64,000 nt of DNA, taken from positions 4,156,538 to 4,220,537 of the forward strand of contig NC_037254.1 in assembly GCF_000002425.4 (NCBI RefSeq), given 5' to 3'. The translations under genes were made by a program, and so were the position numbers. Shown here one piece after another: positions 2,166 to 60,573 of this stretch (position 1 is the first letter of the stretch; each line of letters opens with the position of its first letter). The notes under the pieces were generated by a model. It searched no databases, was not told the DNA's origin, and saw nothing but the letters and a program-made list of their open reading frames with translations. This stretch comes from Physcomitrium patens. Its lineage: Eukaryota; Streptophyta; Bryopsida; Funariales; Funariaceae.

Positions 2166-2723
2166 TGTCACGGATATACTCATATAAGCTAGTAATTACA
2201 TATACAAATAGGTGGAAGTAAGTAAAAGTAGGTAAAAACAAGTCAATTCTATAGTATTTAATATGGAAGCTTCTTAGAAGCTTCATAGATGCTACTTTGA
2301 CTTCATAGGTGTCTTCAATTGACTTTTTGGATTAGAAACGTGGTCAACAAGTTGGCCATGTGCCACACATGTTGTTAGCTTGAAGATCAAACTAACTATG
2401 TTACTTACACATAGAAAAACTTGCCTTGTAAGTCAAGGCATATGTCCTACAAGGTCAACACATATTGGAGGTTCTATAGAACGTCACCACGTAGTCCCTA
2501 GTTAGATAGTATATATAGAGACAAGAGTGAAGCCCTCTTCATTCTTGTCAACTCCTTTCTTACTTCTAGTCTAGTTTCAAGGGTCTCTAGTTTTCTTGTC
2601 TTTTGGCAATAGCCATTCCAGTTTCTTTCTTAATATACATATCAAGTTATTTCTGTTTTGTCATCTTTGTATGAGAGAAGTCTTACTTGTTTATTTGTCT
2701 TTATCATATTCTTGTCTTTGACA
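2166..2723 (+). repeat. 5' LTR of element A
   Basis: 558-bp LTR. A TATA box (TATATATA) lies at 2510-2517, followed by the inverted repeat ACAAGAGTGAAG/CTTCATTCTTGT at about 2521-2549. CATTCTTGTCAA (2540-2551) starts 30 nt after the TATA box and is mostly complementary to TTCACAAGAGTA at 2726-2737 just beyond the LTR. Confidence 0.9.
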
Positions 2724-8448: not shown

Positions 8449-8583
8449 TGTTAGGGACATAGTCCTTAGAATCTTCTAGAGACAAGTTTTTAGAACCTTC
8501 TAGAGACAAGTTTTTAGAACCTTCTAGAGACAAGTTTTTAGAACCTTCTAGAGACAAGTTTCTAGAACCTTTTAGAGACAAGC

Positions 8584-8731
8584 TTCTAGAACCTTCTAGA
8601 AGCAAGTCTCTGGAACCTTCTAGAAGCTTCTTAGTTGGTAGAAGATGTTAGGGACATAGTCCTTAGAACCTTCTAGAGATAAGTTTCTAGAACCTTCTAG
8701 AAGCAAGTCTCTGGAACCTTCTAGAAGCTTC
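8584..8731 (+). promoter_or_regulatory. Heat-shock-element array in the LTR of element C
   Basis: Perfect alternating nGAAn/nTTCn units with the canonical 5-bp phase: TTCTAGAACCTTCTAGAA at 8584-8601 and 8685-8702, and GAACCTTCTAGAAGCTTC at 8613-8630 and 8714-8731. Each has four contiguous units, and consensus heat-shock-factor sites need three. The upstream 24-bp repeats (8466-8580) contain GAAccTTCtaGAg near-matches. The array lies directly upstream of the TATA box. Binding is inferred. Confidence 0.65.
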
Positions 8732-8772
8732 CTAGTTGGTAGAAGTTGCTTGAAGAGCTTCGTAAATAGGAG

Positions 8773-8816
8773 TATATATTGGAATCGAGGTTGAAGAGTT
8801 CTTCAGTCTCGACAAC
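8773..8816 (+). promoter_or_regulatory. TATA box and 5'-end hairpin of element C
   Basis: TATATAT at 8773-8779 is followed by an interrupted hairpin at 8785-8812 (arms TCGAG...TGAAGA and TCTTCA...CTCGA, 2-nt loop). AGTCTCGACAA at 8805-8815 begins 32 nt after the TATA box, where transcription would be expected to start. It is complementary at 10 of 11 positions to the sequence right after the LTR. Confidence 0.6.
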
Positions 8817-8935
8817 ACATCTCTTGGAGCTCTAGCTCACCTCTCTGGTGTTGTTCTCATCTGATTAATCTAGTTCTTGTCAGTTCTTCTTGAACTTCTT
8901 ATTAGACTCGAGTCTGTATTTCTGTGTCCGTGACA

Positions 8936-8971
8936 GTTTGTGGAGACTACACTCACCTCAGATATCAGAGC
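8936..8971 (+). promoter_or_regulatory. Candidate primer region of element C
   Basis: GTTTGTGGAGACT (8936-8948) abuts the LTR and can pair with the predicted RNA 5' end at 8805-8815. TATCAGAGC at 8963-8971 resembles a tRNA-iMet primer site but is 27 nt from the LTR and lacks TGG. Confidence 0.5.
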
Positions 8972-9215
8972 TAATTTCTTCTTTGTTAGAGTGTGGATTA
9001 CCCCTCTGCTTGGAAGTGTATTAGCACTTTACAGGTTGCGGATTACCCTCCTCTAAACTGATACTTCTTTTGTTACAATATTGGAGTCTTATTCTTCTTA
9101 GAGAGAGTGGATTACCCCTTTTCTTGAAGCTCTTAAGGCATTTTAGAGGTTGCGGAGTACCCTCCTCTAAACCAATATTGTCTTCTTGTAGCGTCATTTC
9201 TGTCCTTCTCTTAGA

Positions 9216-10241
9216 ATGGTCGAGGGCAAAGACATTAGTATGACGGAAAGTTTAGAGTCCAAATTAGATGCTATCATGAATGCCCTCGCTACATTATCAC
9301 AAAGAACTGCAGAGATTGAAGGAGTCGTGGCAAGGCTTCATAATGATGGAGCATCTGGGATGGCACAATCTAGGTTGCACCAGCCTCAAACTTCTATACT
9401 TGGAGAAACAACTTTGCCTCAGGTTCGACAAGCACCGCTGGTTCTATAACATAAGAAACCTCGAGTTAGCCTTCCAGACAAGTTCGATAGTACACGTTCC
9501 AAGTTTCGAGGATTCGTTAACCAAATCAGATTGATAACAATTTTACAGCCCGAACACAATCCAACGGAGGAGTCACGTGTTGGACTTGTTGGAACCTTAC
9601 TTACAAGACAAGCTCTATCATGGTTTGCTCCTTTGTTTGAGAAACGATCGTCCATACTAAACAACTTTGAAACCTTTTAAAAGGCGTTTGCGGAAGTATT
9701 TGGTGAACACGACAAGGTTCGATGGGCTACAACAAAGATCCGATGACTACGACAAGGAATGCGTTCTACATCAGTCTATGCATCGGACTTCAGGCAATTA
9801 GCATGCGACATCAATTGGGACGAAGAAGCGTTGATGAGTCAAATCTATTGGGGTTTAAGGGACGATGTGGAGGATTTGCTGTTAACTCTTCCTAATCTGC
9901 AAACGCTCAACGAAGCTATTAGCCAAGCTGTGAAGTGCGATAACCGCCTATTCCAACGTCGCCAAGATCAACGTTCAAGACAACATACGGTTCGCCACAT
10001 CCCAACTATGTCGGCAAGCAGGGTGAATTGACATTCAGAGGTAGAAGACATGCAAATTGATGCAGTACGTGTCAAATCCCTTACTCTAGAAGAAAAAAAG
10101 CGGCGTATGGAGGAAGGTCTATGCTTGTATTACGGTGAAGAAGGCCACAAAGTTGGAAATTGTCCCAAGAAGCAAAATCGACGTATTACCAAGACTAAGG
10201 GTGTATTTATTCAGGAAAACGAGGATGCCGAGCCACAATAG
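9216..10241 (+). pseudogene. Gag of element C, broken
   Basis: ATG at 9216 (MVEGKDISMTESLESKLD). The N-terminal part is open to 9449, where TAA stops it; further breaks follow near 9680 and 9745. The capsid C-terminal part (9759-10031) and the nucleocapsid (10050-10241) are readable. The knuckle reads CLYYGEEGHKVGNCP, with the second Cys replaced by Tyr. The frame ends in TAG at 10239-10241. Confidence 0.85.
10214..10241 (+). other. Candidate -1 frameshift site, element C gag-pol
   Basis: G GAA AAC (10214-10220) lies 18 nt before the gag TAG. Pol continues in the -1 frame (gag frame 10050, pol frame 10247). A short hairpin AACCG/CGGTT follows at about 10243-10254. Confidence 0.5.
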
Positions 10242-10816
10242 GAACCGTGCGGTTGGACAGTGAAATATCGCAACAACAACCAGGTTCCTTTCTTTCCGCT
10301 CAACCTGCCCTTTGTTTTACAATCCCTTTGCTTATTGGCCCTCAGAAACTGAGAACCTTAGCATTTTTAGATTCAGAAGCATCTGCTTGTTTCTTAGACA
10401 AAGAATTTACAAAGCATCATAAGATCCCTTTAGTACAAAAATCCAAACTTGTTCACGTTGAGGTCATAGATGGACGACCTTTATTGTCTGATAGTGTCAC
10501 CCATGAATCAGAACCTAGAGAAGTGACGTTTAAGGACCATAGTAGTCATATTATTTTCAATATTATTAGAACCCCATCAAATCCTGTTATTCTTGGTCTT
10601 TCCTAGTTGGAAAAGCATAACCCATCCATAGATTGGAAGTTGCGGAAGATGACCTTTTCCACAAAACCACCCAAGAGCAAGCCTAGTAGAAAACCCCTAA
10701 TAGAGAAATCCTTATTTACTGGAGCAAGAGCGTTTATAAGATTGTCCAAGAGAGGCACACCGTTTGTCATTTATGCGACTCTAACTACCGGGGAGAAGAT
10801 CTCGACAACAAGTATA
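10242..10816 (+). pseudogene. Protease part of pol, element C
   Basis: The aspartic-protease motif is altered from DSGAS to DSEAS (FLDSEASACFLDKEF near 10365), which would abolish activity. TAG at about 10604 breaks the frame in the ILGLS|EKHNP region. The segment ends where element D is inserted, with GTATA (10812-10816) duplicated at 17189-17193. Confidence 0.85.
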
Positions 10817-11367
10817 TGTCAAGGACAAGAACTCGATGAAAGCTAAAGAGTAAGTGAGACTTTTCTCAAGAAGAAATAGGACAAAATAGAAATATGTATA
10901 TTAAGAAAGAAACTGGAATGGCTATTGCCACAAGACAAGAAACTAAAGACTCTTGAACCTGGACTAGAAGCAAGAAAGGAGTTGACAAGAGTGAAGAAGC
11001 CTTCACTCTTGTCTCTATATATACTATCTAACTAGGGGCTACGTGGCGACGTTCTATAGGACCTCCAATATGTGTTGACTTTGTAGGACACATGCCTTGA
11101 CTTACAAGGCAAGTTTTTCTACGTGTGGGCCACATAGTTAGCTTGATCTTCAAGCTAACAACATGTGTGGCACATGGCCAACTTGTTGACCACGTTTTTA
11201 ATCCAAAAAGTCAATTAAAGACACCTATGAAGTCAAAGCAGCGTCTAGGAAGTTTCTAGGAAGCTTCTATATTAAATATTATACAATTAACTTACTTTTA
11301 TCTACTTTTACTTACTTCTACCTATTTCTATATATAATTATTAGCTTATATGATTATGGCCGTGACA
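10817..11367 (-). repeat. 3' LTR of element D
   Basis: 551 bp, ending TGTCACGGCC...TTGACA in element orientation. The polypurine tract (C-rich on plus, 11371-11377) is adjacent. Around 10920-10965 it carries the same short variant block as element B. Confidence 0.92.
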
Positions 11368-11408
11368 TTACCCCCCCTTTTAGAGACGAGTTCCACGAGG
11401 AGCGGTCA

Positions 11409-11831
11409 TCATATGTTGAGGAAATCTATGATGCGACGAATTGTATTTGCCACATACTCTGATCTCTGTTCTCTTCGAAGATGATTGATAGGGCCTCTCA
11501 ACCATCGGTAGTGTCCCATACCAGGGCGGGAAGACCACCCAGTTATTTGATCATTATTGAGGCCTTCATAACTTCCTTCGAATAGAATATTCGGAACACC
11601 ATCAGGAGTTGTTCCTACCTCTAGCAAAATCACCAAACATCGGGAGTCCCTTCCCAAATCGTGATACCAAACGCGTTGTATCTCACCATCTGTTCGAGGA
11701 AGAACATGTCGTTCTTGAAGATCTTCATCTCGATTGCGTCGTCTTGAAGGTTGTGACAATCGTAATGTCTCGTCCGGCAGGTCAGCAAACGAAGGTTCTT
11801 GAGTTGAATCTGCTGGTTGTTGGCTCTCCAT
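11409..11831 (-). CDS. ORF3 of element D: conserved 140-aa protein between pol and 3' LTR
   Basis: An intact 140-aa frame starting ATG at 11831 (MESQQPADSTQEPSF) and stopping 40 bp before the LTR, in the sense of the element. It starts about 95 nt after the pol stop. Residues 20-50 are acidic to Arg-rich, followed by a predicted-globular part with CLVILLEVG, then FEGSYEGL and the block GHYRWLRGPINHLRREQ near residues 105-122. No signal peptide or membrane segment is visible, so it is not an obvious envelope gene. The related ORF in element C shares GxxHYxWLxGPxNxLxREQ. I do not recognise the family; function unknown. Confidence 0.75.
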   Translation of the reverse strand: MESQQPADSTQEPSFADLPDETLRLSQPSRRRNRDEDLQERHVLPRTDGEIQRVWYHDLGRDSRCLVILLEVGTTPDGVPNILFEGSYEGLNNDQITGWSSRPGMGHYRWLRGPINHLRREQRSEYVANTIRRIIDFLNI

Positions 11832-11925
11832 CTAATTAGCGTCACAAATGCAAAGAAGTTACAAACAAGGATAGGAAATTGAATGTTGTCTTGCCTCAAT
11901 CTTGTCTCTTTTATAAGAGAGATTT

Positions 11926-14900
11926 TCATCTTGGTTTTGATAGATGTCGTTGATGAAAAACTTTGACTTTAGTTGATGCATTTGCTAGATTCCTGGATGG
12001 CTCCCATGTGCGTTCACTAATATCATATCCGCGCCAATGAACAAGATATTCCAGCTTATTTCGGCGCTACCTTGAGTCTAATATCTCTTCCACTTCAAAT
12101 TCTTCATTATTATCTACTTCTATAGGAGGCAGTGGCATTTGTCTTCTTCCTTGTATATCCACTGTCTTATATGGTTCAAGAAGAGATACGTGGAATACAG
12201 GATGGATCTTCATTGACTCTGGTAGATGTAACCGATATGCAACTGGGTTGATCTGTTCAGAAACAGAAAAGGGGCCAAGCCTACGATAGTCCAACTTGTC
12301 ACAAGGTCGAGTAGTCTTGATATTGCGACGAAGTAGCCATACCTTATCACCGACGTTGATCTGTGGTTGCTCCTTACGATATAGATCTGCGTCTATCTTT
12401 TGTCGTTCTTGAGCTTCCTTCAATTGTGTCTTCATTATTGCATGTAACTCTGACAACCGATTTGCCATATCTTCTGCTGCAGGATTATCAACTTTTGAAA
12501 AATCAAAAGTATCAAGTCGTGGATGATAGCCATAATTGGCAAAGAAAGGTGTTTGTTGCGTGGAAGAATGTACCGTATTATTATAAGCAAACTCTGCCAA
12601 TGGCAGAAGGGTTGTCCAATCATCTTGTTGGTAGTTGATAGTACACCTTAAATATTGCTCCAAGACTTGGTTTACGCGCTCTGTTTGTCCATCAGTTTGA
12701 GGATGAAAAGCCGAAGATAGTTTTATGTCCACTTTTAAAATCTTGAAAAGGGTCCTCCAAAATCTTGACACAAATTGAGTTCCCCTATCCGATATGATAT
12801 CTTTAGGTAATCCATGATAGCGATAGATATTATCAATGAAAAGCTTAGCTGTTTCTTCACCTGTGATAGATTTTGTACATGGCACAAAATGTGCCATCTT
12901 GGTGAAACGATCTACTATCACAAATATAGAATCATAAGATCTTGAGCTTGGAAGATCTGTGATGAAATCCATAGAAACAGAAGACCATGGTTGTTCTGGT
13001 ATAGGTAATGGCTGAAGAAGTCCGTAAGGTCGATGACGAGGAATTTTTGATCTTGAACAAATATCACATGATTGTACAAAGTCTTTGACTGACTTCCACA
13101 TTTGTGGCCACCATAAATCTCTTGATATGAGTTCCAAAGTCTTATTATATCCAAAGTGCCCTGCTGTTGGAAAGTCATGACGTGCTTGAAGAACACGTAA
13201 ACGTGCTTCTCCTTCTGGAACATATAGGCGTCCTTCAAAATATAATAGATTATTCTTGAACTCAAACTTAGAAGGATCATGAGACTTGGAAGAATTATTC
13301 TCGATATCATAAACAAGAGGGTTTGAGGACATACTCGACTGGATTTGCTTGAGAAAAGTTGAATCAACAGTCAATGTTGATTTCATTGCTCGGAGATGAA
13401 ATTGCTCCGGTTTCAAGAGGACCGTTCTTTGTTGCTCAAAAGCTGCATCTCCTTCTTTTAGTACAAAATAAGAACGTCTAGATAGGGCATCGGATAAACC
13501 TTGTTGTTTTCCTGGCCGATAAGTGATAATGAACTCAAATCTTGACAAAAACATACTCCAACGAGCTTGACGACGATTCAACACGCGTGCTGACATAAAA
13601 TACTCGAGGTTCTTGTGATCTGTATACACAGTGACTAGACTAGAAGCGCCTTCTAGATAATGACGCCATTCTTGAAAAGAATCCACGATCACAAGAAGTT
13701 CTTTATTGTGGATCTCATAATCGATCTTGGTTGCTGAGAATTATCTTGAATGGAAAGCTATCAGATGAAGTTTGACATCTGTTCCCATTTGTGATAAAAC
13801 TGCACCCAAGGCAAAATCTGATGCATCTGTTTCCATAAAAAATGCCTTGGAAAAGTCAACACGATATAAGACTGGTGCAGAGACAAACGATGTCTTCAAG
13901 GCTTCAAATGCTGCTTCCGCTTCTTGATTCCATTGAAATTTATCTTTACTAGTCAAGCGTGTAAGTGGAGCTGCAACTCGTGAGAAATCTTTGATGAAGA
14001 TCCGATAGTAATTCGCAAATCCCAAGAAACATTGAACATCTCTTACTGTCCTTGGAATCTTCCAATCCACGATTGTTTGGACTTTCTTAGAATCCATCAT
14101 GAGACCATCATTTGAAATGATGTATCCTAAAAAGTCAACTTGAGTAGTGTGAAATACACACTTTTCCATCTTGGCGTACAATCCTGCATCTCTAAGTTTT
14201 TGTAATACTTGACGAACATGTATTTCATGTTCTTCGACGTTCTTGGAATAGATCAGGATATCGTCTAGATAGCAGACGACAAAATTATCTAAGAATTCAC
14301 GAAATACATCATTCATGAGATGTTGAAAAGCAGTTGGTGCATTCGTGAGTCCAAAGGGCATGACATTATATTCGAAATGTCCATACCTGGTTCGAAACGC
14401 AGTCTTCCATTCATCTCCTTCTTTGATCCGTACTAGATTATATGCTCCTCTTAGATCTATTTTTGTATAGATCTTAGCTTGATTCAACTGGTCAAGGAGT
14501 CCTGATATCAAAGATAATGGATACCTGTTCTTGATTGTGATCTTGTTGAGTCCTCGATAATCAACACACATTCGTAAAGATCCATCTTTTTTCTTTACGA
14601 ATAGAATTGGAGCTCCTGCTGGAGATTTTGAATGGCGTATGAAATTCTTCGCTAAATTCTCATCAATATATGTCTTGAGTTCAGCCATCTCATCTTGCGA
14701 TAAACTGTAAATTGGTCCAAATGGTGGCTGAGTTCCTTCCTTGAGGTCGATTGAACAATCATATGGGCGATGCTCAGGAAGAATATCTGCATTCTTTTTC
14801 TCAAAAACGTCTTGATACTCCTGATATTGACTTGGAATGCCACTTGAAGTCTTTACGTTTTCAGAAATAGGTGCAGCATAAATAGCAAAAGTTGATCCTT

Positions 14901-15419
14901 CTTTTGCTGCGTGTATAAATGCTTTTACACCTATCAGTGCGAGTTTTACTATACTAGACTTATAATTTTTTACTTGGTTGGTAGAACTATTAATAACGCT
15001 CTTGGAAAAGTCAAGTTTACGTGAATTCCAATCTATTCGAGGGTTATATTTTTCTAGCCAGGATAAACCTAAAATAATTGGATTGGACGGGGATTTAATT
15101 ATGTTAAAAGCTATGTAGCTATCATGACCGTCTATTGTTACTTTTATAGGATGAGTTTCATGAGTGACATCTCCAAAAGACAAGGGACGACCATCTATGA
15201 CTTCTACATGTACTGGTTTAGGTTTCTGTACAAAAGGTATTTTACGACTTTTAACAAATTGTTCATCTAAAAAACATGCTGAGGCTCCCGAATCTAATAA
15301 AGCAGAGGCTTTGTAATTCTTAGGTCCTAAATATAAGTCTATTATAAAACAAGGAGAGGGTTCTGAGGAGAGGATAGGACCTTCATTAGGAATTGTACAA
15401 GGTTCCAGCTGCACGGTCC
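11926..15419 (-). pseudogene. Pol of element D, nearly complete but with stops
   Basis: From the 5' end of the element: protease with [11 protein letters not shown] intact (about 15300); RT with [11 protein letters not shown] (about 14255); RNase H METDASDFALG (about 13820); integrase with H-H-C-C region (HDFPTAGHFGYNK, then CDICSRSK) and the core acidic residues in SMDFITDLP, ISDRGTQF and GQTERVNQ; chromodomain EEFEVEEILDSR then LEYLVHW. Breaks: TAA at 13741-13743 in RNase H (shared with B) and TAG at about 12064 in the chromodomain. All catalytic residues that I can see are present. Confidence 0.88.
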
Positions 15420-16424
15420 CTATTGTAGCTGGACGAATCCGTTTTCCGACATGATGTCTTCTTTGACCGTCGTACCCCTCATTTTATAGTTGCGTTGTTT
15501 CTTTGGACAATGTTGAGCAGTGTGCTTAGGTTCTCCGCAATATAAACATAATCCTTCTTAACGACGACGAATCTTTTCTTGCTCAATTAGAGGTTTAAAA
15601 CGTACCGCGTCAATTTGCATGTCTTCTACTTCCGAATGTACGTTTGGCAAAGATGTTGATGTTGCCATTGAGTAATAACATTGAGGTTTCCGTGAATGAT
15701 TCTCAGATCAAAATTCAAAAAGTCGATTATCACATTTTACCGCAAAATCGATTGCTTGACTCAAAGTTTGAGGATCAGGTAAGTTGAGCATCAATTTCTT
15801 TACTTCGTATTGCAATCCATAGAGAAATTGACTAATGAGTGCAGCATCATCCCACTTGATGTCAATTGCAAGTTGTCGAAATTGTGAAGCATATACTGTT
15901 ACTGAGCGATTTCCTTGTCGCAGAATTCGGATCTTATTTGTTGCAACATGAGTTGCATCGTGTTCACCATACATAGATCGAAACTCCGCCAAAAAAGCTT
16001 CCAAATTGTCCAATATTGGATTTTGTTGTTCAAGAAAAGACGAAAACCACGATAATGCAGAACCAGAAAGTAGAGTGCCAATAAACCTGACTTGTGATCC
16101 TGGAGTTGGATAGCTTTGCGGTTGAAGTTCAATTGCCAATTGTACTTGATTGATGAACCCTCGAAACTTTGATCTCGTACCATCAAATTTTTCAGGTAAG
16201 GCAGTTCTTGATTCTCTTGTGCTTATAGGGTGTTGTACAATTGGAGAAGGAACGTGATTTGTTGTAGATGTTGAAGCAGCTCCGATCATCTCTATATCTC
16301 CACTTTCTGCTATTCTTGTTCTTTCCTGTGTTGGTGAATTGATTTGATGCATCGCAAGCATTAACTCCCTCATTTGCTCTTGCATTTGTGCCATTGCACT
16401 CTTCATTTCAACAAGCTCTGCCAT
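15420..16424 (-). pseudogene. Gag of element D with two internal stops
   Basis: ATG at 16424 (MAELVEMKSAMAQMQ, a coiled-coil-like N-terminus). The capsid part is open to TGA at 15708-15710 (after NRLFEF). A second stop, TAA, precedes the knuckle (EGLCLYCGEPKHTAQHCPKK, normal CCHC). The gene ends in TAG at 15420-15422. Both internal stops are at the same places in element B. The heptamer G GAA AAC is at 15441-15447 on the minus strand. Confidence 0.85.
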
Positions 16425-16604
16425 AATGACACTAAAAAGAAAAATTTGTTTGATATTGCTCAAGACAAAAGAAAAGAAAGACTTGATAACAAAGAAGATA
16501 CTAAGAACAATATCAGTTTAGAAGTGGGTAATCCGCAAACTTCTAATACGCTTATGTCTTGTCAAGAGAAAGGGGTAATCCACTCTTACTCAAGAAAAAA
16601 CAAA

Positions 16605-16636
16605 GCTCTGATATTGTAAGTGTACTCTTGTCAATC
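16605..16636 (-). promoter_or_regulatory. Primer region of element D
   Basis: Just inside the 5' LTR, TTGACAAGAGTA (minus; plus 16623-16634) is complementary at 11 of 12 positions to the predicted RNA start CACTCTTGTCAA (minus; plus 16803-16814). The TATCAGAGC motif follows at about 16605-16613. Confidence 0.55.
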
Positions 16637-17188
16637 TGTCAAGGACAAGAAGTCGATGAAAGCTAAAGAGTAAGTGAGACTTTTCTCAAGAAGAAATAGG
16701 ACAAAATAGAAATATGTATATTAAGAAAGAAACTGGAATGGCTATTGCCAAAATACAAGAAAACTAGAGACCCTTGAAACTAGACTAGAAGCAAGAAAGG
16801 AGTTGACAAGAGTGAAGAAGCCTTCACTCTTGTCTCTATATATACTATCTAACTAGGGGCTACGTGGCGACGTTCTATAGGACCTCCAATATGTGTTGAC
16901 TTTGTAGGACACATGCCTTGACTTACAAGGCAAGTTTTTCTACGTGTGGGCCACATAGTTAGCTTGATCTTCAAGCTAACAACATGTGTGGCACATGGCC
17001 AACTTGTTGACCACGTTTCTAATCCAAAAAGTCAATTAAAGACACCTATGAAGTCAAAGTAGCGTCTAGGAAGTTTCTAGGAAGCTTCTATATTAAATAT
17101 TATAGAATTAACTTACTTTTATCTACTTTTACTTACTTCTACCTATTTCTATATGTAATTATTAGCTTACATGATTATGGCCGTGACA
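16637..17188 (-). repeat. 5' LTR of element D
   Basis: 552 bp. It is near-identical to the 3' LTR except for a cluster of about nine differences at 16746-16788, where it matches the LTR type of element E rather than that of B. Confidence 0.92.
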
Positions 17189-20096
17189 GTATACCGGAGC
17201 AATATAAGGATTTTAAAGACGTATTTCAAAAGAAAAATGCCAACATGCTACCGGAACACAGACCATATGATTGCGCCATAGACTTGCAGGAAGGAGCACA
17301 ACCGCCTTTTGGCCCAATCTATAATCTATCGCAGACGGAGTTGGCGGAATTGCGAAAGTACATCGACGAGAATCTAGCCAAGAACTTCATCCATCATTCA
17401 AAATCGTCAGTTGGAGCACCCATCTTATTTGTGAAGGAGAAAGATGGCTCATTGCGGATGTGCATGGACTATCGAGGCCTCAAGAAGGTAACAAAGAAGA
17501 ATCGTTAGCCATTACCCTTGATTTCTGGTCTCTTAGAACAACTTGGACGTGCAAGGATCTTTACAAAAATTGATCTAAGGGGAGCTTACAACCTCGTACG
17601 AATGAAGGAAGGAGATGAGTGGAAGACAGTGTTCCGTATAAGGTATGGCCATTTTGAGTATAATGTCATGCCCTTTCGTCTTACCAATGCTCCAGCGGTC
17701 TTTCAACATATGATGAATGACATTTTCCAAGAGCACCTTGATAATTTTGTTGTCATCTATTTGGATGATATTTTGATATTCTCCAAAAATGAGGAAGAAC
17801 ATGAAAAATACGTTTGTTTGGTCTTGAAAAAACTACGCGAGCGAGGACTATATGCCAAATTAGAGAAGTGTTTATTTCACCAAATAGAGATGGAGTTTTT
17901 GGGGTTCGTTGCGACTACGAAAGGCTTGAAGATGGACCCCAAGAAGGTAGAAGCAATTGTGTCTTGGGAGGCTCCAAAGACGGTTAGAGACGTACAATGC
18001 TTTCTTGGTTTTGCCAACTTCTATCGGATCTTTATCAAGAATTACTGTCAAGTTGCTGCTCCTCTCACTCAGTTGACATACAAGGATAAGCTGGAATGGG
18101 GATCTCTAGCAGAGAAGGCGTTTCAAAACCTGAAGACCACATTTACTACGCCTCCAATCTTGGTACATCCAGACTTTATAAAGGCCTTCTATTTAGAAAC
18201 TGATGCTTCGGATTTTACTTTGAGAGCTGTACTTTCACAAATGGGAGAAGACAAGAAGCTCCATCCGATTGCATTCTATTCTCGAAAGTTCTCTGCTATT
18301 GAAATCAATTATGAGATCTACGATAAAGAACTTCTTGCTATAGTGGATTCTTTCCAAGAATGGCATCACTTTCTTGAAGGAGCTGCCATCTAGTGACCGT
18401 ATACAGAGATCACAAGAATTTGGAGTATTTCATGTCAGCTCAAGTTCTAAATCGACGTCAAGCTCGATGGAGTATGTTGCTATCTAGGTTCGATTTTATT
18501 ATCACTTATCGACCTGGAAAGCAGCAAGGACTATCTGATGCCTTATCGAGGAGATCGTATCTTATACCAAAGGCTGGAGAAGTAGCGTTTGATCAACAAT
18601 GTACGACATTGTTGAAGCCAGAGCAATTTCAGCTTTGCGCTACTATTATGCCAATTGATGCTGACTTCCTGAATCAGGTACGTGCCGTAACCATTGAAGA
18701 TTCAGTAGCCATTGATATTAAGCAGCGTGCCAATGACGACAAGTTCAAAGTGGAGGGAGATCTTTTATACCTTGAGGAGCGGTTATATATTCCAAAAGGA
18801 CCAGCACGACTCCGAGTTCTTCAATCTTGCCACGATTTTCCAGCTGTGGGACATTTTGGATTCAACAAGACCTTGGAGCTTATTTCTCGAGATTTTTGGT
18901 GGCCCCAAATGTGAAAGGATGTGAAAGATTTTGTCCTCTCCTTTGACATCTCTTCAAGATCCAAGAATCCTCGACATCACCCTTATGGACTCCTACAGCC
19001 ATTGCCGATTCCACGTCGACCATGGTCTTCAATTTCTATGGACTTCATCACGGACCTGCCATCATCGAACTCATTTGACAACATCTTTGTTGTGGTAGAT
19101 CGGCTTACAAAAATGGCACACTTTGTGCCTTGCAAAAAGGCATCGTCCAGTGAAGTCACAGCAAGACTCTTTCTCGATAATAAATATGGATATCATGGAT
19201 TATCAGATGATATCGTATCAGATCGAGGAACCCAGTTCGTATCGAAGTTTTAGAGATCTCTCTTTGAGATATTGAAGGTGGATATCAAGCTTTCTTCGGC
19301 TTTTCATCCTCAAACTGACGGTCAAACGGAATGGATGAACCAAGTCTTGGAACAATACTTACGATGCAGCATCAACTATTAGTAAGACGATTGGACCATA
19401 TATCTGCCACTAGCCAAGTTTGCATATAACAACACCCTCCATGCGTCGACTCAATACACACCATTCTTTTCCAACTATGGGTATCATCCAAAGCTTGATT
19501 TATTGAGTCCATCAACAAATAACAATCCAGCAGCTGAAGGATTTGCGAAACAACTATTAGAGCTTCAAAATACATTGAAGCTTCAATTACAATCCGCTCA
19601 AGAATCCTACAAGGCGTCTGTAGATAGATTTCGGAATCAAGCACCTACTTTCAAAATTGGAGATAAAGCATGGCTTCTTCGACGGAATATCAAGACCAAG
19701 CGACCATGTGATAAGTTGGACTATCAAAGATTGGGACCATTTATCATCCAAAAGCAAATCAATCCAGTGGCATACCGTCTGGAATTACCAGTTTCTATGA
19801 AGGTATATCCAGTCTTTCATGTTTCTTTGTTGGAGCCTTATCGAGAGTCATCTTTTCCTGGAAGAGTGCAATGTCCGCCACCTAGTATTGAGATCGAGAA
19901 CCACGAGGAATACGAGGTTGAAAAGGTGCTAGATTCTCGGCGAAGGTGGGGCAAGTTGGAGTATCTTGTTTATTGGTGCGGCTACAACATTAATGAGCGA
20001 ACGTGGGAGCCAGCTGAAAATCTCACCAATGCGCCGTAAAAGGTACAGGAGTTTCATCAACAATATCCTCATAAATCTAAGCCGATTCGACAATAG
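17189..20096 (+). pseudogene. RT-RNase H-integrase-chromodomain part of pol, element C
   Basis: This continues pol of C after insertion D. RT has VIYLDDILIFS (about 17755) and RNase H has LETDASDF (about 18197). Integrase has HDFPAVGHFGFNKT, but the zinc CxxC reads FDIS, and the core motifs SMDFITDLP and VSDRGTQF are present while TER reads TEW. The chromodomain is at about 19890-20030. Stops include TAG 17506, TAG 18391, TGA 18912, TAG 19250 and TAA 20037. The natural end appears to be TAG 20094-20096. Confidence 0.88.
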
Positions 20097-20228
20097 CTTC
20101 TTTCTGAAGCTTGTTCACCTAAGAATATAAGAAAGGGGGAGAGCACCACCAAAATTCATAGTTGATGTAGTTATTTTCTCCAAGATAAAATAGAATTTTT
20201 TCAGTAGCCATAGTATTGGTCTTTCGAT

Positions 20229-20582
20229 ATGGATAGCCAAGAGATAGATACTATGCTAGTCAAATTATCTCAACCAACTAGTTCACGAAGGCGACCCCGA
20301 GATGAAGAACCACCTGTACCACGACGACGACGGAGGATACCAAATAACCGATCACTGGTGATTGTATTTGAGTCCGATTCTGCTTACGATGGTCAACCAG
20401 AAGGCATATTTGCAGGACAATTTTACAATGAAGACATGGAAGTTCATGCTTGGTCAGAAGTTGAAGGAGTGAGCCACTATCATTGGCTTCAAGGGCCGAT
20501 GAACTACTTATCTCGTGAACAACAGTTGGAGTTCATTGCAGACGTTATGCAACAGATCTTCATTTTCTTACGTTGGTATTGA
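20229..20582 (+). CDS. ORF3 of element C: 117-aa protein between pol and 3' LTR
   Basis: Intact 117-aa ORF starting ATG at 20229 (MDSQEIDTMLVKLSQ) and stopping about 48 bp before the LTR. It has an Arg-rich patch at residues 20-40 (PRRRRRIP), then SLVIVFESD, FAGQFYNED and HYHWLQGPMNYLSREQQLEF. It is collinear with the 140-aa ORF3 of element D, with shared residues concentrated in HYxWLxGPxNxLxREQxxExxA and an LVI strand. It stays open while gag and pol of the same element carry many stops. No recognised family; function unknown. Confidence 0.72.
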   Translation: MDSQEIDTMLVKLSQPTSSRRRPRDEEPPVPRRRRRIPNNRSLVIVFESDSAYDGQPEGIFAGQFYNEDMEVHAWSEVEGVSHYHWLQGPMNYLSREQQLEFIADVMQQIFIFLRWY

Positions 20583-20615
20583 TTGACAACATTGCTTCTC
20601 AGAGACCTTGAAGCT

Positions 20616-20626
20616 AAAGGAGGGGG
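20616..20626 (+). promoter_or_regulatory. Polypurine tract of element C
   Basis: AAAGGAGGGGG, three bases before the 3' LTR; the expected primer for plus-strand DNA synthesis. Confidence 0.75.
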
Positions 20627-20629
20627 TGA

Positions 20630-21068
20630 TGTTAGGGACATAGTCCTTAGAACCTTCTAGAGACAAGTTTCTAGAACCTTCTAGACACAAGTTTTTAGAA
20701 CCTTCTAGAGACAAGCTTCTAGAACCTTCTAGAAGCAAGTCTTTGGAACCTTCTAGAAGCTTCCTAGTTGGTAGAAGATGTTAGCGACATAGTCCTTAGA
20801 ACCTTCTAAAGATAAGTTTCTAGAACCTTCTAGAAGCAAGTCTCTGGAACCCTCTAGAAGCTTCCTAGTTGATAGAAGTTGCTTGAGAAGCTTCCTAAAT
20901 AGGAGTATATATTGGAATCGAGGCTGAAGAGTTCTTCAATCTCGACAACACATCTCTTGGAGCTCTAGCTCACCTCTCTGGTGTTGTTCTCATCTGATTA
21001 ATCTAGTTCTTGTCAGTTCTTCTTGAACTTCTTATTAGACTCGAGTCTGTATTTCTGTGTCCGTGACA
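20630..21068 (+). repeat. 3' LTR of element C
   Basis: 439 bp. It has the same duplicated start (TGTTAGGGACA, then TGTTAGCGACA) and heat-shock-type GAAnnTTC units as the 5' LTR, with two fewer 24-bp repeats. Confidence 0.9.
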
Positions 21069-43515: not shown

Positions 43516-43788
43516 TCGTTGAATCAATAGTTAATGTTGATTTTGCTGTTCAAAGATAAAAATGCTTCAACTTGAAGAAAATTCTTCCAATCAAAGGATA
43601 AAAATACTTTAGCTTGAAGATAAAGATGCATTTCTTTTTTTTGGTCCAAAATAATATTACATCTAGAAAGGTCGTCCAATAAACCTTGTTGTTTTCTAAG
43701 TCAATAAAAAATCTTGAAATCAAAGGATATGCTCGAACAAGCTTCAAAATAATTTAAAATACAAGCTAATATAAAATTCTCGAGGTTC
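43516..43788 (-). pseudogene. RNase H-integrase linker remnant of element Y
   Basis: GTTGAATCAATAGTTAATG onward aligns with the linker of D (13350-13620), ending at the CTCGAGGTTC site where element B inserted. Confidence 0.75.
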
Positions 43789-44338
43789 TGTCACGGCCAT
43801 AATCATGTAAGCTAATAATTACATATAGAAATAGGTAGAAGTAAGTAAAAGTAGATAAAAGTAAGTTAATTCTATAATATTTAATATAGAAGCTTCCTAG
43901 AAACTTCCTAGACGCTGCTTTGACTTCATAGGTGTCTTTAATTGACTTTTTGGATTAGAAACGTGGTCAACAAGTTGGCCATGTGCCACACATGTTGTTA
44001 GCTTGAAGATCAAGCTAACTATGTGGCCCACACGTAGAAAAACTTGCCTTGTAAGTCAAGGCATGTGTCCTACAAAGTCAACACATATTGGAGGTCCTAT
44101 AGAACGTCGCCACGTAGCTCCTAGTTAGATAGTATATATAGAGACAAGAGTGAAGGCTTCTTCACTCTTGTCAACTCCTTTCTTGCTTCTAGTCCAGGTT
44201 CAAGGGTCTTTAGTTTCTTGTCTTGTGGCAATAGCCATTCCAGTTTCTTTTTAATATACCTACTTGTTTATATTTTGACTTATTATATCGAGATAGCTTT
44301 TTTGTATATTTTCCCTCATCGAGTCTTTGTCCTTGACA
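43789..44338 (+). repeat. 5' LTR of element B
   Basis: 550 bp, TGTCACGGCC...CCTTGACA. The promoter and hairpin are described separately. Confidence 0.95.
44133..44174 (+). promoter_or_regulatory. TATA box, 13-bp hairpin and predicted RNA start of element B
   Basis: TATATATA (44133-44140) is followed by a perfect inverted repeat, GACAAGAGTGAAG (44143-44155) and CTTCACTCTTGTC (44160-44172), with a 4-nt loop. CACTCTTGTCAA (44163-44174) begins 30 nt after the TATA box, so it is the likely 5' end of the genomic RNA. It is fully complementary to 44341-44352. Confidence 0.65.
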
Positions 44339-44370
44339 GATTGACAAGAGTGCACTTACAATATCAGAGC
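44339..44370 (+). promoter_or_regulatory. Candidate self-priming site and iMet-like motif of element B
   Basis: TTGACAAGAGTG (44341-44352) lies 2 nt after the LTR and is a 12-of-12 complement of CACTCTTGTCAA in the R region. TATCAGAGC (44362-44370) is the alternative tRNA-iMet-like motif, 23 nt from the LTR and without TGG. Confidence 0.55.
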
Positions 44371-44546
44371 TTTGTTTTTCTTGAGTGAGAGTAGATTACC
44401 CCTTTCTCTTGACAAGACATAAGCATATTAGAAGTTTGCGGATTATCCACTTCTAAACTGATATTGTTCTTAGTATCTTCTTTGTTATCAAGTCTTTCTT
44501 TTCTTTTGTCTTGAGCAGTATCAAACAAATTTTTCTTAGTGTCATT

Positions 44547-45551
44547 ATGGCAGAGCTTGTTGAAATGAAGAGTGCAATGGCACAATTGCAAGAGCAAATG
44601 AGGGAGTTAATGCTTGCGATGCATCAACTCAATTCACCAACACATGAAAGAACAAGAATAGCAGAAAGTAGGGATATAGAGATGATCGGAGCTGCTTCAA
44701 CATCTATAACAAATCACGTTCCTTCTCCAATTGTACAACACCCTGTAAGCACTAGAGAACCAAGAATTACCTTACCCGAGAAATTTGATGGTACGAGATC
44801 AAAGTTTCGAGGGTTCATCAATCAAGTACAATTGGCAATTGAACTTCAACCGCAAAGCTATCCAACTCCAGGATCACAAGTCAGGTTTATTGGCACTCTA
44901 CTTTCTGGTTCTGCATTATCATGGTTTTCGTCTTTTCTTGAACAACAAAATCCAGTATTGGACAATTTGGAAGCTTTTTTGGCAGAGTTTCGATCTATGT
45001 ATGGTGAACACGATGAAACTCGTGTTGCAACAAATAAGATCCGAATTCTGCGACAAAGAAATCGCTCAGTAACAGTGTATGCTTCACAATTTCGACAACT
45101 TGCAATTGACATCAAGTGGGATGATGCTGCACTCATTAGTCAATTTCTCTATGGATTGCAATACGAAGTAAAGAAATTGATGCTCAACTTACCTGATCCT
45201 CAAACTTTGAGTCAAGCAATCGATTTTGCGGTAAAATGTGATAATCGACTTTTTGAATTTTGATCTGAGAATCATTCACGGAAACCTCAATGTTATTACT
45301 CAATGGCAACATCAACATCTTTGCCAAACGTACATTCAGAAGTAGAAGACATGCAAATTGACGCGGTACGTTTTAAACCTCTAATTGAGCAAGAAAAGAT
45401 TCGTCGTCGTTAAGAAGGATTATGTTTATATTGCGGAGAACCTAAGCACACTGCTCAACATTGTCCAAAGAAACAACGCAACTATAAAATGAGGGGTACG
45501 ATGGTCAAAGAAGACAACATGTCGGAAAACGGATTCGTCCAGCTACAATAG
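44547..45551 (+). pseudogene. Gag of element B with two internal stops
   Basis: ATG at 44547 (MAELVEMKSAMAQLQ); full frame 1005 nt ending TAG 45549-45551. The N-terminal region is coiled-coil-like, then the capsid (PEKFDGTRSKFRGFINQ), then a normal CCHC knuckle (CLYCGEPKHTAQHC, 45423-45464). TGA at 45261-45263 and TAA at 45411-45413 break it. Both look like C-to-T changes of CGA and CAA and both are also in D. Confidence 0.88.
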
Positions 45552-45567
45552 GGACCGTGCAGCTGGA
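45524..45567 (+). other. Candidate -1 frameshift signal of element B gag-pol
   Basis: Slippery heptamer G GAA AAC (45524-45530), 7-nt spacer, then a 7-bp stem TCCAGCT (45538-45544) / AGCTGGA (45561-45567) whose 16-nt loop contains the gag TAG (45549-45551). Pol is open in the -1 frame across this site. Same arrangement in element D. Confidence 0.6.
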
Positions 45568-48500
45568 ACCTTGTACAATTCCTAATGAAGATCCTATCCT
45601 CTCCTCAGAACCCTCTCCTTGTTTTATAATAGACTTATATTTAGGACCTAAGAATTACAAAGCCTCTGCTTTATTAGATTCGGGAGCCTCAGCATGTTTT
45701 TTAGATGAACAATTTGTTAAAAGTCGTAAAATACCTTTTGTACAGAAACCTAAACCAGTACATGTAGAAGTCATAGATGGTCGTCCCTTGTCTTTTGGAG
45801 ATGTCACTCATGAAACTCATCCTATAAAAGTAACAATAGACGGTCATGATAGCTACATAGCTTTTAACATAATTAAATCCCCGTCCAATCCAATTATTTT
45901 AGGTTTATCCTGGCTAGAAAAATATAACCCTCGAATAGATTGGAATTCACATAAACTTGACTTTTCCCAGAGCGTTATTAATAGTTCTACCAACCAAGTA
46001 AAAAAGTATAAGTCTAGTATAGTAAAACCCGCACTGATAGGTGTAAAAGCATTTATACACGCAGCAAAAGAAGGATCAACTTTTGCTATTTATGCTGCAC
46101 CTATTTCTGAAAGCGTAAAGACTTCAAGTGGCATTCCAAGTCAATATCAGGATTATCAAGACGTTTTTGAGAAAAAGAATGCAGATATTCTTCCTGAGCA
46201 TCGCCCATACGATTGTTCAATCGATCTCAAGGAAGGAACTCAGCCACCATTTGGACCAATTTACAGTTTATCGCAAGATGAGTTGGCTGAACTCAAGACA
46301 TATATTGACGAGAATTTAGAGAAGAATTTCATACGCCATTCAAAATCTCCAGCAGGAGCTCCAATTCTATTCGTAAAGAAAAAAGATGGATCTTTACGAA
46401 TGTGTGTTGACTATCGAGGACTCAACAAGATCACAATCAAGAACATGTATCCATTACCTTTGATATCACGACTCCTTGACCAGTTGAATCAAGCTAAGAT
46501 CTATACAAAAATAGATCTAAGAGGAGCATATAATCTAGTACGGATCAAAGAAGGAGATGATTGGAAGACTGCGTTTCGAACCAGGTATGGACATTTCGAA
46601 TATAATGTCATGCCCTTTGGACTCACGAATGCATCAGCTGCTTTTCAACATCTCATGAATGATGTATTTCGTGAATTCTTAGATAATTTTGTCGTCTACT
46701 ATCTAGACGATATCCTAATCTATTCTAAGAACATCGAAGAACATGAAATACATGTTTGTTAAGTATTACAAAAACTTAGAGATGCAGGATTGTACGCCAA
46801 GATGGAAAAGTGTATATTTCACACTACTCAAGTTGACTTTTTAGGATACATCATTTCAAATGATGGTCTCATGATGGATTCTAAGAAAGTCCAAACAATC
46901 GTGGATTAGAAGATTCCAAGGACAGTAAGACATGTCCAATGTTTCTTGGGATTTGCCAATTACTATCGGATCTTCATCAAAGATTTTTCACGAGTTGCAG
47001 CTCCACTTACACGCTTGACTAGTAAAGATAAATTTCAATGGAATCAAGAAGCGGAAGCAGCATTTGAAGCCTTGAAGACATCGTTTGTCTCTGCACCAGT
47101 CTTATATCGTGTTGACTTTTCCAAGGCATTTTTTATGGAAACAGATGCATCAGATTTTGCCTTGGGTGCAGTTTTATCACAAATGGGAACAGATGTCAAA
47201 CTTCATCTGATAGCTTTCCATTCAAGATAATTCTCAGCAACCAAGATCGATTATGAGATCCACGATAAAGAACTTCTTGTGATCGTGGATTCCTTTCAAG
47301 AATGGCGTCATTATCTAGAAGGCGCTGCTAGTCCAGTCACTCTGTATACAGATCACAAGAACCTCGAGTATTTCATGTCAGCACGCGTGTTGAATCGTCG
47401 TCAAGCTTGTTGGAGTATGTCTTTGTCAAGATTCGAGTTCATTATCACTTATTGGCCAGGAAAACAACAAGGTTTGTCCGATGCCCTATCTAGACGTTCT
47501 TATTTTGCACCAAAAGAAGGAGATGCAACTTTTGAGCAACAAAGAACGGTCCTCTTGAAACCGGAGCAATTTCATCTCCGAGCAATGAAATCAACATTGA
47601 CTGTTGATTCAACTTTTCTCAAGCAAATCCAGTCCAGTATGTCCTCAGACCCTCTTGTTTATGATATCGAGAATAATTCTTCTAAGTCTCATGATCCTTC
47701 AAAGTTCGAGTTCAAGAATAATCTATTATATTTTGAAGGACGCCTATATGTTCCAGAAAGAGAAGCACGTTTACGTGTTCTTCAAGCACGTCATGACTTT
47801 CCAACAGCAGGGCACTTTGGATATAATAAGACTTTGGAACTCATATCAAGAGATTTTTGGTGGCCACAAATGTGGAAGTCAGTCAAAGACTTTGTACAAT
47901 CATGTGATATTTGTTCAAGATCAAAAATTCCTCGTCATCGACCTTACGGACTTCTTCAGCCATTACCTATACCAGAACAACCATGGTCTTCTGTTTCTAT
48001 GGATTTCATCACAGATCTTCCAAGCTCAAGATCTTATGATTCTATATTTGTGATAGTAGATCGTTTCACTAAGATGGCACATTTTGTGCCATGTACAAAA
48101 TCTATCACAGGTGAAGAAACAGCTAAGCTTTTCATTGATAATATCTATCGCTATCATGGATTACCTAAAGATATCATATCAGATAGGGGAACTCAATTTG
48201 TGTCAAGATTCTGGAGGACCCTTTTCAAGATTTTAAAAGTGGACATAAAGCTATCTTCGGCTTTCCATCCTCAAACTGATGGACAAACAGAGCGCGTAAA
48301 CCAAGTCTTGGAGCAATATTTAAGGTGTACTATCAACTACCAACAAGATGATTGGACAAACCTTCTGCCATTGGCAGAGTTTGCTTATAATAATACGGTA
48401 CATTCTTCCACGCAACAAACACCTTTCTTTGCCAATTATGGCTATCATCAACGACTTGATACTTTTGATTTTTCAAAAGTTGATAATCCTGCAGCAGAAG

Positions 48501-49045
48501 ATATGGCAAATCGGTTGTCAGAGTTACATGCAATAATGAAGACGCAATTGAAGGAAGCTCAAGAACGACAAAAGATAAACGCAGATCTATATCGTAAGGA
48601 GAAACCACAACTCAATGTGGGTGATAAGGTATGGCTACTTCGTCGCAATATCAAGACTACTCGACCTTGTGACAAGTTGGACTATCGTAGGCTTGGCCCC
48701 TTTTCTGTTTTTGAACAGATCAACCCAGTTGCATATCGGTTACATCTACCGGAGTCAATGAAGATCCATCATGTATTCCACGTGTCTCTTCTTGAACCAT
48801 ATAAGACAGTGGATATACAAGGAAGAAGACAAATGCCACCGCCTCCTATAGAAGTAGATAATAATGAAGAATTTGAAGTGGAAGAGATATTAGACTCAAG
48901 GCGGCGTCGAAATAAGCTGGAATATCTTGTTCATTGGCGCGGATATGATATTAGTGAACGCACATGGGAGCCATCCAAGAATCTAGCAAATGCATCAGCT
49001 AAAGTCAAAGTTTTTTATCAACGACATCCATCGAAACCAAGATGA
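45552..49045 (+). pseudogene. Pol of element B (PR-RT-RH-IN-chromodomain) with three stops
   Basis: Protease [11 protein letters not shown] (about 45675); RT with [11 protein letters not shown] (about 46695); RNase H METDASDFALG (about 47138); integrase HHCC (HDFPTAGHFGYNK, CDICSRSK) and core motifs SMDFITDLP, ISDRGTQF and GQTERVNQ (about 47800-48300); chromodomain about 48860-49020 (EEFEVEEILDSRR, LEYLVHWRGY, RTWEP). Stops: TAA 46760-46762, TAG 46907-46909 (from TGG) and TAA 47228-47230 (shared with D). The rest is one continuous frame ending TGA 49043-49045. The chromodomain places it among chromoviruses, which are thought to target heterochromatin. Confidence 0.92.
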
Positions 49046-49139
49046 AAATCTCTCTTATAAAAGAGACAAGATTGAGGCAAGATAACATTCAATTTCCTAT
49101 CCTTGTTTGTAACTTCTTTACATTTGTGACGCTAATTAG

Positions 49140-49601
49140 ATAGAGAGCCAACAACCAGCGGATTCAACTGAAAAACCTTCGTTTGCTGTCCTGTCGGATG
49201 AGACATTACGATTGTCACAACCTTCAAGATGATGCAATCGAGATGAACATCTTCAAGAACGACATGTTCTTCATCGAATAGATGGTGAGATACAACTCGT
49301 TTGGTATCACGATTTGGGAAGGGACTCCCGATGTTTGGTGATTTTGCTAGAGGTAGGAACAACTCCTGATGGTGTTCCAAATATTCTATTCGAAGGAAGT
49401 TACGAAGGCCTCAACAATGATCAAATAACTGGGTGGTCTTCCCACCCTGGTATGGGACACTACCGATGGTTGAGAGGCCCTATCAATCATCTTCGAAGAG
49501 AACAGAGATCAGAGTATGTGGCGAATACAATTCGTCGCATCATAGATGATCGCTCCTCGTGGAACTCGCCTCTAGAAGGGGGGGTAATGTCACGGCCATA
49601 A
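49140..49601 (+). pseudogene. ORF3 of element B, broken
   Basis: Collinear with ORF3 of D, but the start codon reads ATA (49140-49142) and a TGA interrupts it at about 49230. A short deletion near 49545 removes the normal stop, so the frame runs into the LTR. The block GHYRWLRGPINHLRREQ remains intact. Confidence 0.75.
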
Positions 49602-50137
49602 TCATGTAAGCTAATAATTACATATAGAAATAAGTAGAAGTAAGTAAAAGTAGATAAAAGTAGGTTAATTCTATAATATTTAATATAGAAGCTTCCTAGA
49701 AACTTCCTAGACGCTGCTTTGACTTCATAGGTATCTTTAATTGACTTTTTGGATTAAAAACGTGGTCAACAAGTTGGCCATATGCCACACATGTTGTTAG
49801 CTTGAAGATCAAGCTAACTATGTGGCCCACACGTAGAAAAACTTGCCTTGTAAGTCAAGGCATGTGTCCTACAAAGTCAACACATATTGGAGGTCCTATA
49901 GAACGTCGCCACGTAGCTCCTAGTTAGATAGTATATATAGAGACAAGAGTGAAGGCTTCGTCACTCTTGTCAACTCCTTTCTTGCTTCTAGTCCAGGTTG
50001 AAGGGTCTTTAGTTTCTTGTCTTATGGCAATAGCCATTCCAGTTTCTTTTTAATATACCTACTTGTTTATATTTTGACTTATTATATCGAGATAGCCTTT
50101 TTGTATATTTTTCCTCATCGAGTCTTTGTCCTTGACA
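49588..50137 (+). repeat. 3' LTR of element B
   Basis: 550 bp, preceded by polypurine tract AGAAGGGGGGG (49574-49584) and followed by the GGTTC duplication. Confidence 0.95.
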
Positions 50138-53876: not shown

Positions 53877-54416
53877 TGTCAAGGACATGTATCTCAAAGA
53901 AATAAAATCCTTAATACACTCTTGTATTACTAAAAGAAACTAAAAAGTCACTCAAAGATGATATAATTTTGAATTAGAATGGCTATCGCCAAAAACAAGA
54001 AGACTAGAAAGTCTCGAAATATGACAAAAGTCTAGAAAGACATTGACAAGAGTAAAGGAGATTTGACTCTTACCTCCATATATACTCTTAATTAGGGACT
54101 ATGTGGCGATGTCCTATACGACCTCTAAAACGTGTTGACTTTACAGAATACATATTTTAACTTGCAAGGTAAGTTTTTTATATATAAGCTACATAATTAG
54201 CTCTTTTTGTAAGCTATTAACATGTCATTAACTTGTTGAGCAAATTTCTAATTAATCAATCAACTATAAATATATGTAAAGCCAAAGCAACATCTATGAA
54301 GCTTCTAAAAAGTTATTCTAGAAAGTATTATGATATTAACCTACTTTTATCTATTTTTACCTACTTCTATCTAATTATATAAGTATATACTAGAGCAACT
54401 ATGTCTATCCGTGGTA
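53877..54416 (-). repeat. 5' LTR of element Y
   Basis: 540 bp; clearly related to the 3' LTR at 38158-38691 but with many differences, showing that the insertion is old. Confidence 0.85.
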
Positions 54417-54513
54417 GTATTTTACTTAATGACTTTAATCAGTTTGATATTATTCATTAAAGACAAAGTAGATAAGTAATCAAGTTACAATTTTAATTTA
54501 CTATTTTATATGC

Positions 54514-60361: not shown

Positions 60362-60399
60362 TTACCCTCCCTTCTAGGGACGAGTTCCACGAGGAGCGG

Positions 60400-60573
60400 T
60401 GACTCTATATTGAGAAAATCTAATATGCGGCGAATTGTATTTGCTACATACTCTGATCTTTGTTCTCTTCGAAGATAGTTGATGGATCCTCTTAGCCATC
60501 GATAGTGTCCCATTCCAGGGCGAGAAGACCACCCTGTTATTTGATCACTGTTGAGGCCTTCATAACTTCCTCA
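60400..60573 (-). pseudogene. ORF3 fragment of element E
   Basis: Only the C-terminal part (GSYEG to the REQRSEYVANTIRRIL block) remains. A deletion joins it directly to the end of pol near 60571, and the normal stop is lost. Confidence 0.75.

Follow-up and report, generated by a model that had tools for sequence, protein, structure and literature searches.

The stretch of DNA analysed here (the window; 64 kb, 35% GC, within a 470-Mb genome of 101 contigs) carries a group of related long terminal repeat (LTR) retrotransposons, among them element B (43789-50137, + strand). Judged from its sequence and that of its relatives, B-type elements very probably prime reverse transcription from nucleotides (nt) 1-11 of their own RNA, in the manner of the fission-yeast element Tf1. 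The 5' LTR of B (43789..44338, +) begins with TGTCACGG and ends with CTTGACA, the 3' LTR (49588..50137, +) is 98.2% identical to it, and the target site duplication (TSD) GGTTC stands on each flank (43784-43788 and 50138-50142). Between the LTRs lie a gag open reading frame (44511..45263, +) matching Retrotrans_gag and pol pieces (45557..49045, +) in two separate open frames, one encoding the protease and part of the reverse transcriptase (RT), the other RNase H, integrase and a chromodomain. The chromodomain (PF00385) is found at the integrase end in B (47279-49042; 4.3e-15) and also in the neighbouring elements E4 (60604-62259; 1.9e-14) and G (19503-20036; 1.7e-12). An older minus-strand relative, with LTRs at ~38157-38667 and 53876-54418 (-), seems to enclose B in a nested insertion.

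Promoter, putative primer and candidate primer-binding site (PBS) follow one another in the 5' part of B. A TATA box, TATATATA (44133..44140, +), starts 31 nt ahead of A44164, the base at which the RNA would begin. The first 11 nt of R from this base, ACTCTTGTCAA (44164..44174, +), form the putative self-primer, and their 11/11 complement, TTGACAAGAGT (44341..44351, +), forms the PBS. Because the TSD GGTTC fixes the LTR end at 44338, the PBS begins 2 nt after the LTR, as a first-pass annotation of this DNA had stated. That annotation had matched 12 nt, CACTCTTGTCAA at 44163-44174 with TTGACAAGAGTG at 44341-44352; both segments are exact and rightly placed and all 12 complementary letters are present, but the helix is one of 11 nt and base 12 varies across B copies. 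Its expectation that the RNA starts below the TATA box agrees with the TATA spacing, the likely first base being A44164 and not C44163. A start at C44163, which would give a 12-nt helix, was rejected: PBS nt 12 (44352, +) complements the base at -1 in just 6/45 B, 10/37 G and 11/30 F copies from the genome. Since PBS nt 12 varies among B copies, the twelfth match in B is incidental and A44164 the likely start.

The same arrangement recurs in the window. Its related LTR elements comprise B, E1, E2, E4 and G, plus the older remains F54, F38 and F25. A 5' LTR and PBS are present in five of them, namely B, E1 (2166 to ~8396, +), E2 (~10814-17188, -), G (8449..21068, +; TSD AGAAC; with E2 inserted inside it) and F54; E4 (59829-64000, -) is cut by the window end. 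In all five, the distance from the start of the TATA box to the A is 31-32 nt, and no other site in the LTR matches the PBS in antisense as well as the R start does. Pairing between R start and PBS is 11/11 in B and in E2 (ACTCTTGTCAA, 16803..16813, -; PBS 16634-16624), 10/11 in F54 (ACTCTTGTCAA, 54043..54053, -; PBS 53874-53864, TTGACAAGTGT) and in the window copy of G (AGTCTCGACAA, 8805..8815, +; PBS 8938..8948, +, TTGTGGAGACT), and 9/11 in E1 (ATTCTTGTCAA, 2541..2551, +; PBS 2726-2736, TTCACAAGAGT). Where TSDs set the LTR ends (B, E2 and G), each end lies 2 nt ahead of the PBS. An 11/11 match anywhere in the LTR occurred in 1 of 5000 null LTRs drawn from a first-order Markov model, and in B the match sits where the RNA is expected to start. 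A pattern search of the window, requiring a TATA box followed ~31 nt later by an A and an 11-nt complement downstream of a CA, returned B, E2, F54, G and one A+T-rich match and missed E1 with its 9/11 pairing; three controls gave 5, 3 and 2 matches, nearly all A+T-rich.

Primer and PBS also change together between families. The R start of G forms a perfect 11/11 pairing with the commonest PBS of its family, TTGTCGAGACT, and the survey of family copies proposed in the first-pass annotation found three matched double changes: 3/11 pairs, at R positions 2, 6 and 8, are altered on both sides between B and G. Three double-changed pairs among the five window elements were reached in 2/500 shuffles, and slid controls had 0 or 1; with the G R start held fixed and 4 random changes made in the PBS, pairing of at least 10/11 arose in 177/200000 trials. 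Among 112 genome copies, which include the window's B, G and F54, pairing is 11/11 in 43/45 B, 26/37 G and 7/30 F copies. Most of these copies come from lists capped at the best 40, fetched by similarity to stretches that contain R and PBS; a sample free of this bias was formed by 40 of 150 listed loci anchored on gag (PF03732) and unselected for R or PBS. Here 35 loci pair at 11/11, 3 at 10/11 and 1 at 9/11, with one locus (L101) unparsed. A motif scan of the first 20 of these loci succeeded at 18, compared with 1, 2 and 1 for direct, reversed and complemented controls; the two it missed, L079 and L087, were read by the alignment parser as 9/11 and 11/11. A strict parser missed 2/13 and 8/30 loci that the alignment-based parser recovered. 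The window's family is abundant, with 3693 and 12327 first-look candidates (upper counts, few of which were scored).

A further signal lies at PBS nt 12, the leader column with most changes among B-family copies. At this base the 45 B copies have A (37), G (6) or C (2), and the 37 G copies have A (14), T (12), G (10) or C (1). Counted on trees built without the nt-12 column, its changes outnumber those of every other column in B (6 steps; 334 columns with a mean of 0.58) and in G (17 steps; 319 columns, the runner-up having 7), whereas in F three others out of 301 share the top count of 11 steps with it. The hot spot falls exactly one base outside the 11-nt helix and is likely a scar left where reverse transcriptase runs off the primer at its 5' end, as its position in the copies suggests; untemplated base additions at such junctions occur in Ty1. 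A literature search, largely without subscription papers, found no report of a variable PBS neighbour in self-primed elements.

Where priming occurs defines the end of U5 in LTR elements. The first-pass annotation had described the tRNA-iMet site as present just in the form TATCAGAGC (44362-44370, +), 23 nt from the LTR end and with no TGG, and this is borne out. Priming by tRNA-iMet at this motif, with the 11-nt match incidental, would fit its conservation: it is exact in 13/13 B and 26/30 G copies, at least 8/9 of its letters are kept in 30/30 G copies, and it equals 9/12 nt of the usual plant iMet site, a likeness that counts for this explanation. However, the motif does without TGG, so the 3' CCA of the tRNA cannot pair there; its distance from the LTR end is 23 nt in B and 27 nt in G, and the TSD-fixed end stands 2 nt ahead of the 11-nt PBS instead. 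None of the 30 F copies, whose PBS pairs at 8-11/11 with the R start, has the motif within 60 nt of that PBS, and the full TGGTATCAGAGC was found at 0/20 loci (L074-L093) and nowhere in the window. With the TSD-fixed LTR end 23-27 nt upstream of a motif that does not set it, tRNA-iMet priming was rejected as exceedingly improbable. No TGG occurs 0-4 nt past the LTR in the five window leaders, iMet being the only host tRNA considered; the window G copy has TGG at 5 nt past the LTR, by way of a base absent from most copies of its family. We note that the conserved motif ATATCAGAGC (44362-44370; 8963-8971; L080), which follows the LTR end at 23 nt in B and at 27 nt in G and was not found near the PBS of the F54 family, could be a relic, a packaging signal or chance.

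Two further explanations leave out the element's own primer. PMC6317226 reports that some plant Ty1/copia elements are primed by half-tRNAs, and another cellular RNA, such as a tRNA fragment or small RNA, might prime on TTGACAAGAGT, its likeness to the R start being otherwise caused. Yet the PBS of G differs (commonest form TTGTCGAGACT) and still matches its own R start, which would need a second cellular RNA matching by chance, and the nt-12 hot spot stands exactly one base beyond the 11-nt R match; a cellular primer is thus very unlikely. The other explanation sees a promoter palindrome at the transcription start site (TSS) and a copied repeat after the LTR, with no priming role. It draws on a TSS hairpin that is real and kept in related LTRs, and on the PBS being a direct repeat of part of the hairpin's upstream arm, but it fails on the 2-nt placement of the PBS, the covariation of PBS and R, the missing tRNA site at the LTR end and the nt-12 hot spot, and we give it very little credence. 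Tf1-like self-priming is the best reading, given the covariation between families, an LTR end set at the PBS and a hot spot just beyond the helix.

Several points weigh against self-priming. The case as a whole is built on genomic sequence. F copies are mostly imperfect and look decayed; E1 pairs at just 9/11 and is weak by itself, a match equalled by 675/5000 null LTRs. Because the families are related, their copies cannot be counted as separate events, and because the nt-12 pattern was spotted in the same copies prior to ranking, the ranking is a description and no blind test. Leader RNA folding, a check proposed in the first-pass annotation, gave a divided answer: the PBS helix is stable in 13/13 B leaders at tails of 0, 30 and 60 nt but weakens with longer tails in G and F, with P >0.5 in 28, 14 and 21 of 30 G leaders and in 25, 19 and 16 of 30 F leaders at these tail lengths, and in the window copies of E1 and G it is lost at tails of at least 30 nt. 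The Tf1 leader is described in the accessible part of PMC10085805 as a three-duplex 'pretzel'. Of the three duplexes, the central one forms in B and E2; the flanking ones were not clearly seen among ten leaders tried.

Candidates for those flanking duplexes were few. One upstream duplex of 8 bp is common to the L001 leader and E2 and weaker in E1, with L003 lacking it, and no upstream duplex of at least 7 bp was found in three G copies. A third pretzel duplex formed by ATATCAGAGC was rejected, the match being weak, G-U-rich and seen by eye in G, with nothing common to B and G.

A second structure involves the primer sequence itself. The 10-mer GACAAGAGTG of the PBS recurs at 44143-44152, within a U3 arm, GACAAGAGTGAAG (44143..44155, +), whose partner at 44160-44172 gives a hairpin of 13 bp with loop GCTT; the layout ahead of R reads GACAAGAGTGAAG-GCTT-CTTC, then ACTCTTGTC. 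Across 11 window LTRs, 94.4% of hairpin cells pair, with three double-changed pairs at R positions 2, 6 and 8; the 3' LTR of E1 was left out, its region being lost. In that LTR (7980-8396), a deletion right after TATATATA removed the R start and the hairpin. Shuffles reached the paired share and the covariation score in 0/500 cases, the number of double-changed pairs in 78/500 and that of further pair types in 341/500, so that neither of the last two beats the shuffles; slid versions pair at 41-56%, and the +3 slide likewise has three double-changed pairs. The case for the hairpin consequently leans on conservation and the covariation score over the double-change count, which shuffles often match. 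At least 11/13 hairpin pairs (G-U counted) are kept in 45/45 B, 33/35 G and 27/30 F genome copies. The best local match between B and G LTRs is the TATA-hairpin-R stretch (E 2e-4), and the U3 parts upstream of it differ far more, yet score 21 between B and G versus -2.7 (SD 6.4) for shuffles; as this exceeds the shuffles, the two U3 regions have diverged and are not unrelated. Sequence comparison suggests that arm, R start and PBS covary three ways between B and G, at R positions 2, 6 and 8. One or two G-U pairs stand in the stem of at least 24/30 G copies, which favours a role at the RNA level over a promoter DNA dyad.

RNA starting at A44164 would carry the arm at its 3' end and none at its 5' end. 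Co-folding gives the PBS a gain of 16-17 kcal/mol on pairing with the free 5' R but only 1-4 kcal/mol with the armed 3' R, and we propose that the U3 arm acts as a guard that keeps the PBS off the 3' copy of R. The literature found, largely without subscription papers, contained no report of a U3 hairpin over primer sequence. If it operates, such a guard would explain why the PBS does not engage the second primer sequence, the one in the 3' R.

Following the Tf1 scheme, RNA of B would begin at A44164 and its nt 1-11 would fold onto the PBS; RNase H would then cleave the RNA after nt 11, and synthesis from the 3' end so released would run via 44340 and 44339 into U5. The minus-strand start, together with trimming of 2 nt, would fix the LTR end. 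Later, the plus strand would copy the 11-nt RNA primer up to its 5' end, and an untemplated base could be added at run-off during synthesis of plus-strand strong-stop DNA, persisting past the second strand transfer as PBS nt 12. The U3 arm, which in the RNA stands beside the 3' R copy alone, would fold over that copy, being complementary to the primer sequence and to the 4 nt that precede it, and would cover the same stretch in plus-strand DNA, and the PBS would then pair with the free 5' R copy. Rewriting of nt 12 by rounds of copying and a guard hairpin in U3 both go beyond the known model, and we put these two additions forward tentatively and with some doubt. The biochemistry of self-priming comes from fission yeast, and elsewhere it has mostly been deduced from a short match within an element; here, one land-plant genome presents two families with matched primer and PBS changes and an apparent base-level scar. 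Should the scar be what it seems, primer type and length would be readable from copy alignments in other genomes, and a host that is a moss with a laboratory model among its relatives makes the ends of RNA and cDNA directly checkable.

Other features of the window include further repeats and a host gene. By eye, leader hairpins with GATTACCC-like loops lie 3' of the PBS at 44386-44470, 8990-9170 and ~53800-53850 (-); B has one such pair, G has the pair in duplicate, and they are possible packaging signals. The U3 of G (8467-8725 and 20648-20858) holds 24-bp tandem repeats with a higher-order unit of 101 bp, and a minisatellite of degenerate CCTAAATC-like units occupies 40189-40795. Amid the transposons, a host gene of at least three exons (29927-32070) encodes a protein like the 2OG-Fe(II) dioxygenases. 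Its first 347 amino acids (29927-31358) match other proteins at 86% (top match, with a source name beginning 'Physco'), at 76% in Physcomitrium patens, 67% in Sphagnum, 61% in Marchantia and mostly 45-54% in seed plants, so the host is a moss.

The first-pass annotation had called B a plant chromovirus. This holds in that B is a chromodomain element of a plant host, but that host is a moss, and by its RT the element sides with fungal and vertebrate elements instead of seed-plant chromoviruses. A tree of 28 RTs (24 chosen from 120 matches listed, none of them named Tf1 or sushi, plus 4 from the window) places the window RTs in a 19-row group with Cryptococcus, Tremellales, Absidia, frogs and Anolis, which support of 100/100 separates from 9 rows of Tanacetum and Closterium. 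Within the same group, a window RT is 69% identical to Cryptococcus CNBB2750, which is probably Tcn1. Element B therefore appears, on RT sequence, to be a chromovirus of the Ty3/gypsy type, living in a moss and belonging to the fungal/vertebrate (Tf1/sushi, Tcn1-like) side of the tree. No relatives were confirmed in viral contigs.

Among known systems, Tf1 of Schizosaccharomyces pombe offers the model for priming: in the excerpted text of PMC7175516, the first 11 bases of its RNA pair with the PBS and are cut between 11 and 12. Tf1, Tf2 and Tj1 share with B the 11 nt at the RNA 5' end (placed in B by TATA spacing) that complement the PBS, and related elements have a chromodomain (PMC7175516, PMC4600332 and PMC10085805, as far as their available text goes). 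Element B differs from Tf1 in its moss host and in having no clear pretzel flanking duplexes; by description only, a U3 hairpin and a variable PBS nt 12 go unmentioned for Tf1 in those parts of the sources. RLG1, the main gypsy family of Physcomitrium patens, resembles B in the descriptions available from PMC7466625: a moss host, a chromodomain integrase, abundance (RLG1 is the most abundant family) and a phylogeny not clearly plant-like. The main text of that paper contains neither 'PBS' nor 'primer binding'. Sugar beet chromoviruses are likewise chromodomain Ty3/gypsy elements but differ in having, in the accessible text of PMC3605345, a tRNA-Met PBS no more than 3 nt from the LTR, where none was found here; the seed-plant contrast in the RT tree is Tanacetum, with the beet elements outside the tree.

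Closest in kind is the Tcn1 clade. As given in the available portion of PMC6317226, Neumann et al. (2019) predicted self-priming for most moss and lycophyte members of this clade and for the copia TAR lineage, and held that other plant chromovirus groups do not self-prime. Self-priming in a moss is accordingly less exceptional than the first-pass annotation had assumed. The TAR lineage (Houba, Osr-1) is alike in its predicted self-priming in plants (PMC6317226, same portion) and differs in belonging to another superfamily, the Pfam matches here being to gag and pol of gypsy type along with a chromodomain. According to PMC2864245, Selaginella SM-Tcn1 showed no sign of priming either by a tRNA or by its own RNA. 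The Tcn1 clade and B share a non-seed-plant host, an RT near fungal elements and predicted self-priming, again going by that portion of PMC6317226, where elements were assigned by a complement 10 bp or more in length; covariation, the LTR end and the hot spot are added here. The sequences analysed thus appear to give the published prediction for the Tcn1 clade stronger backing and leave seed-plant chromoviruses unaffected, and, relative to the literature found, the nt-12 scar and the covarying U3 arm seem to be new.
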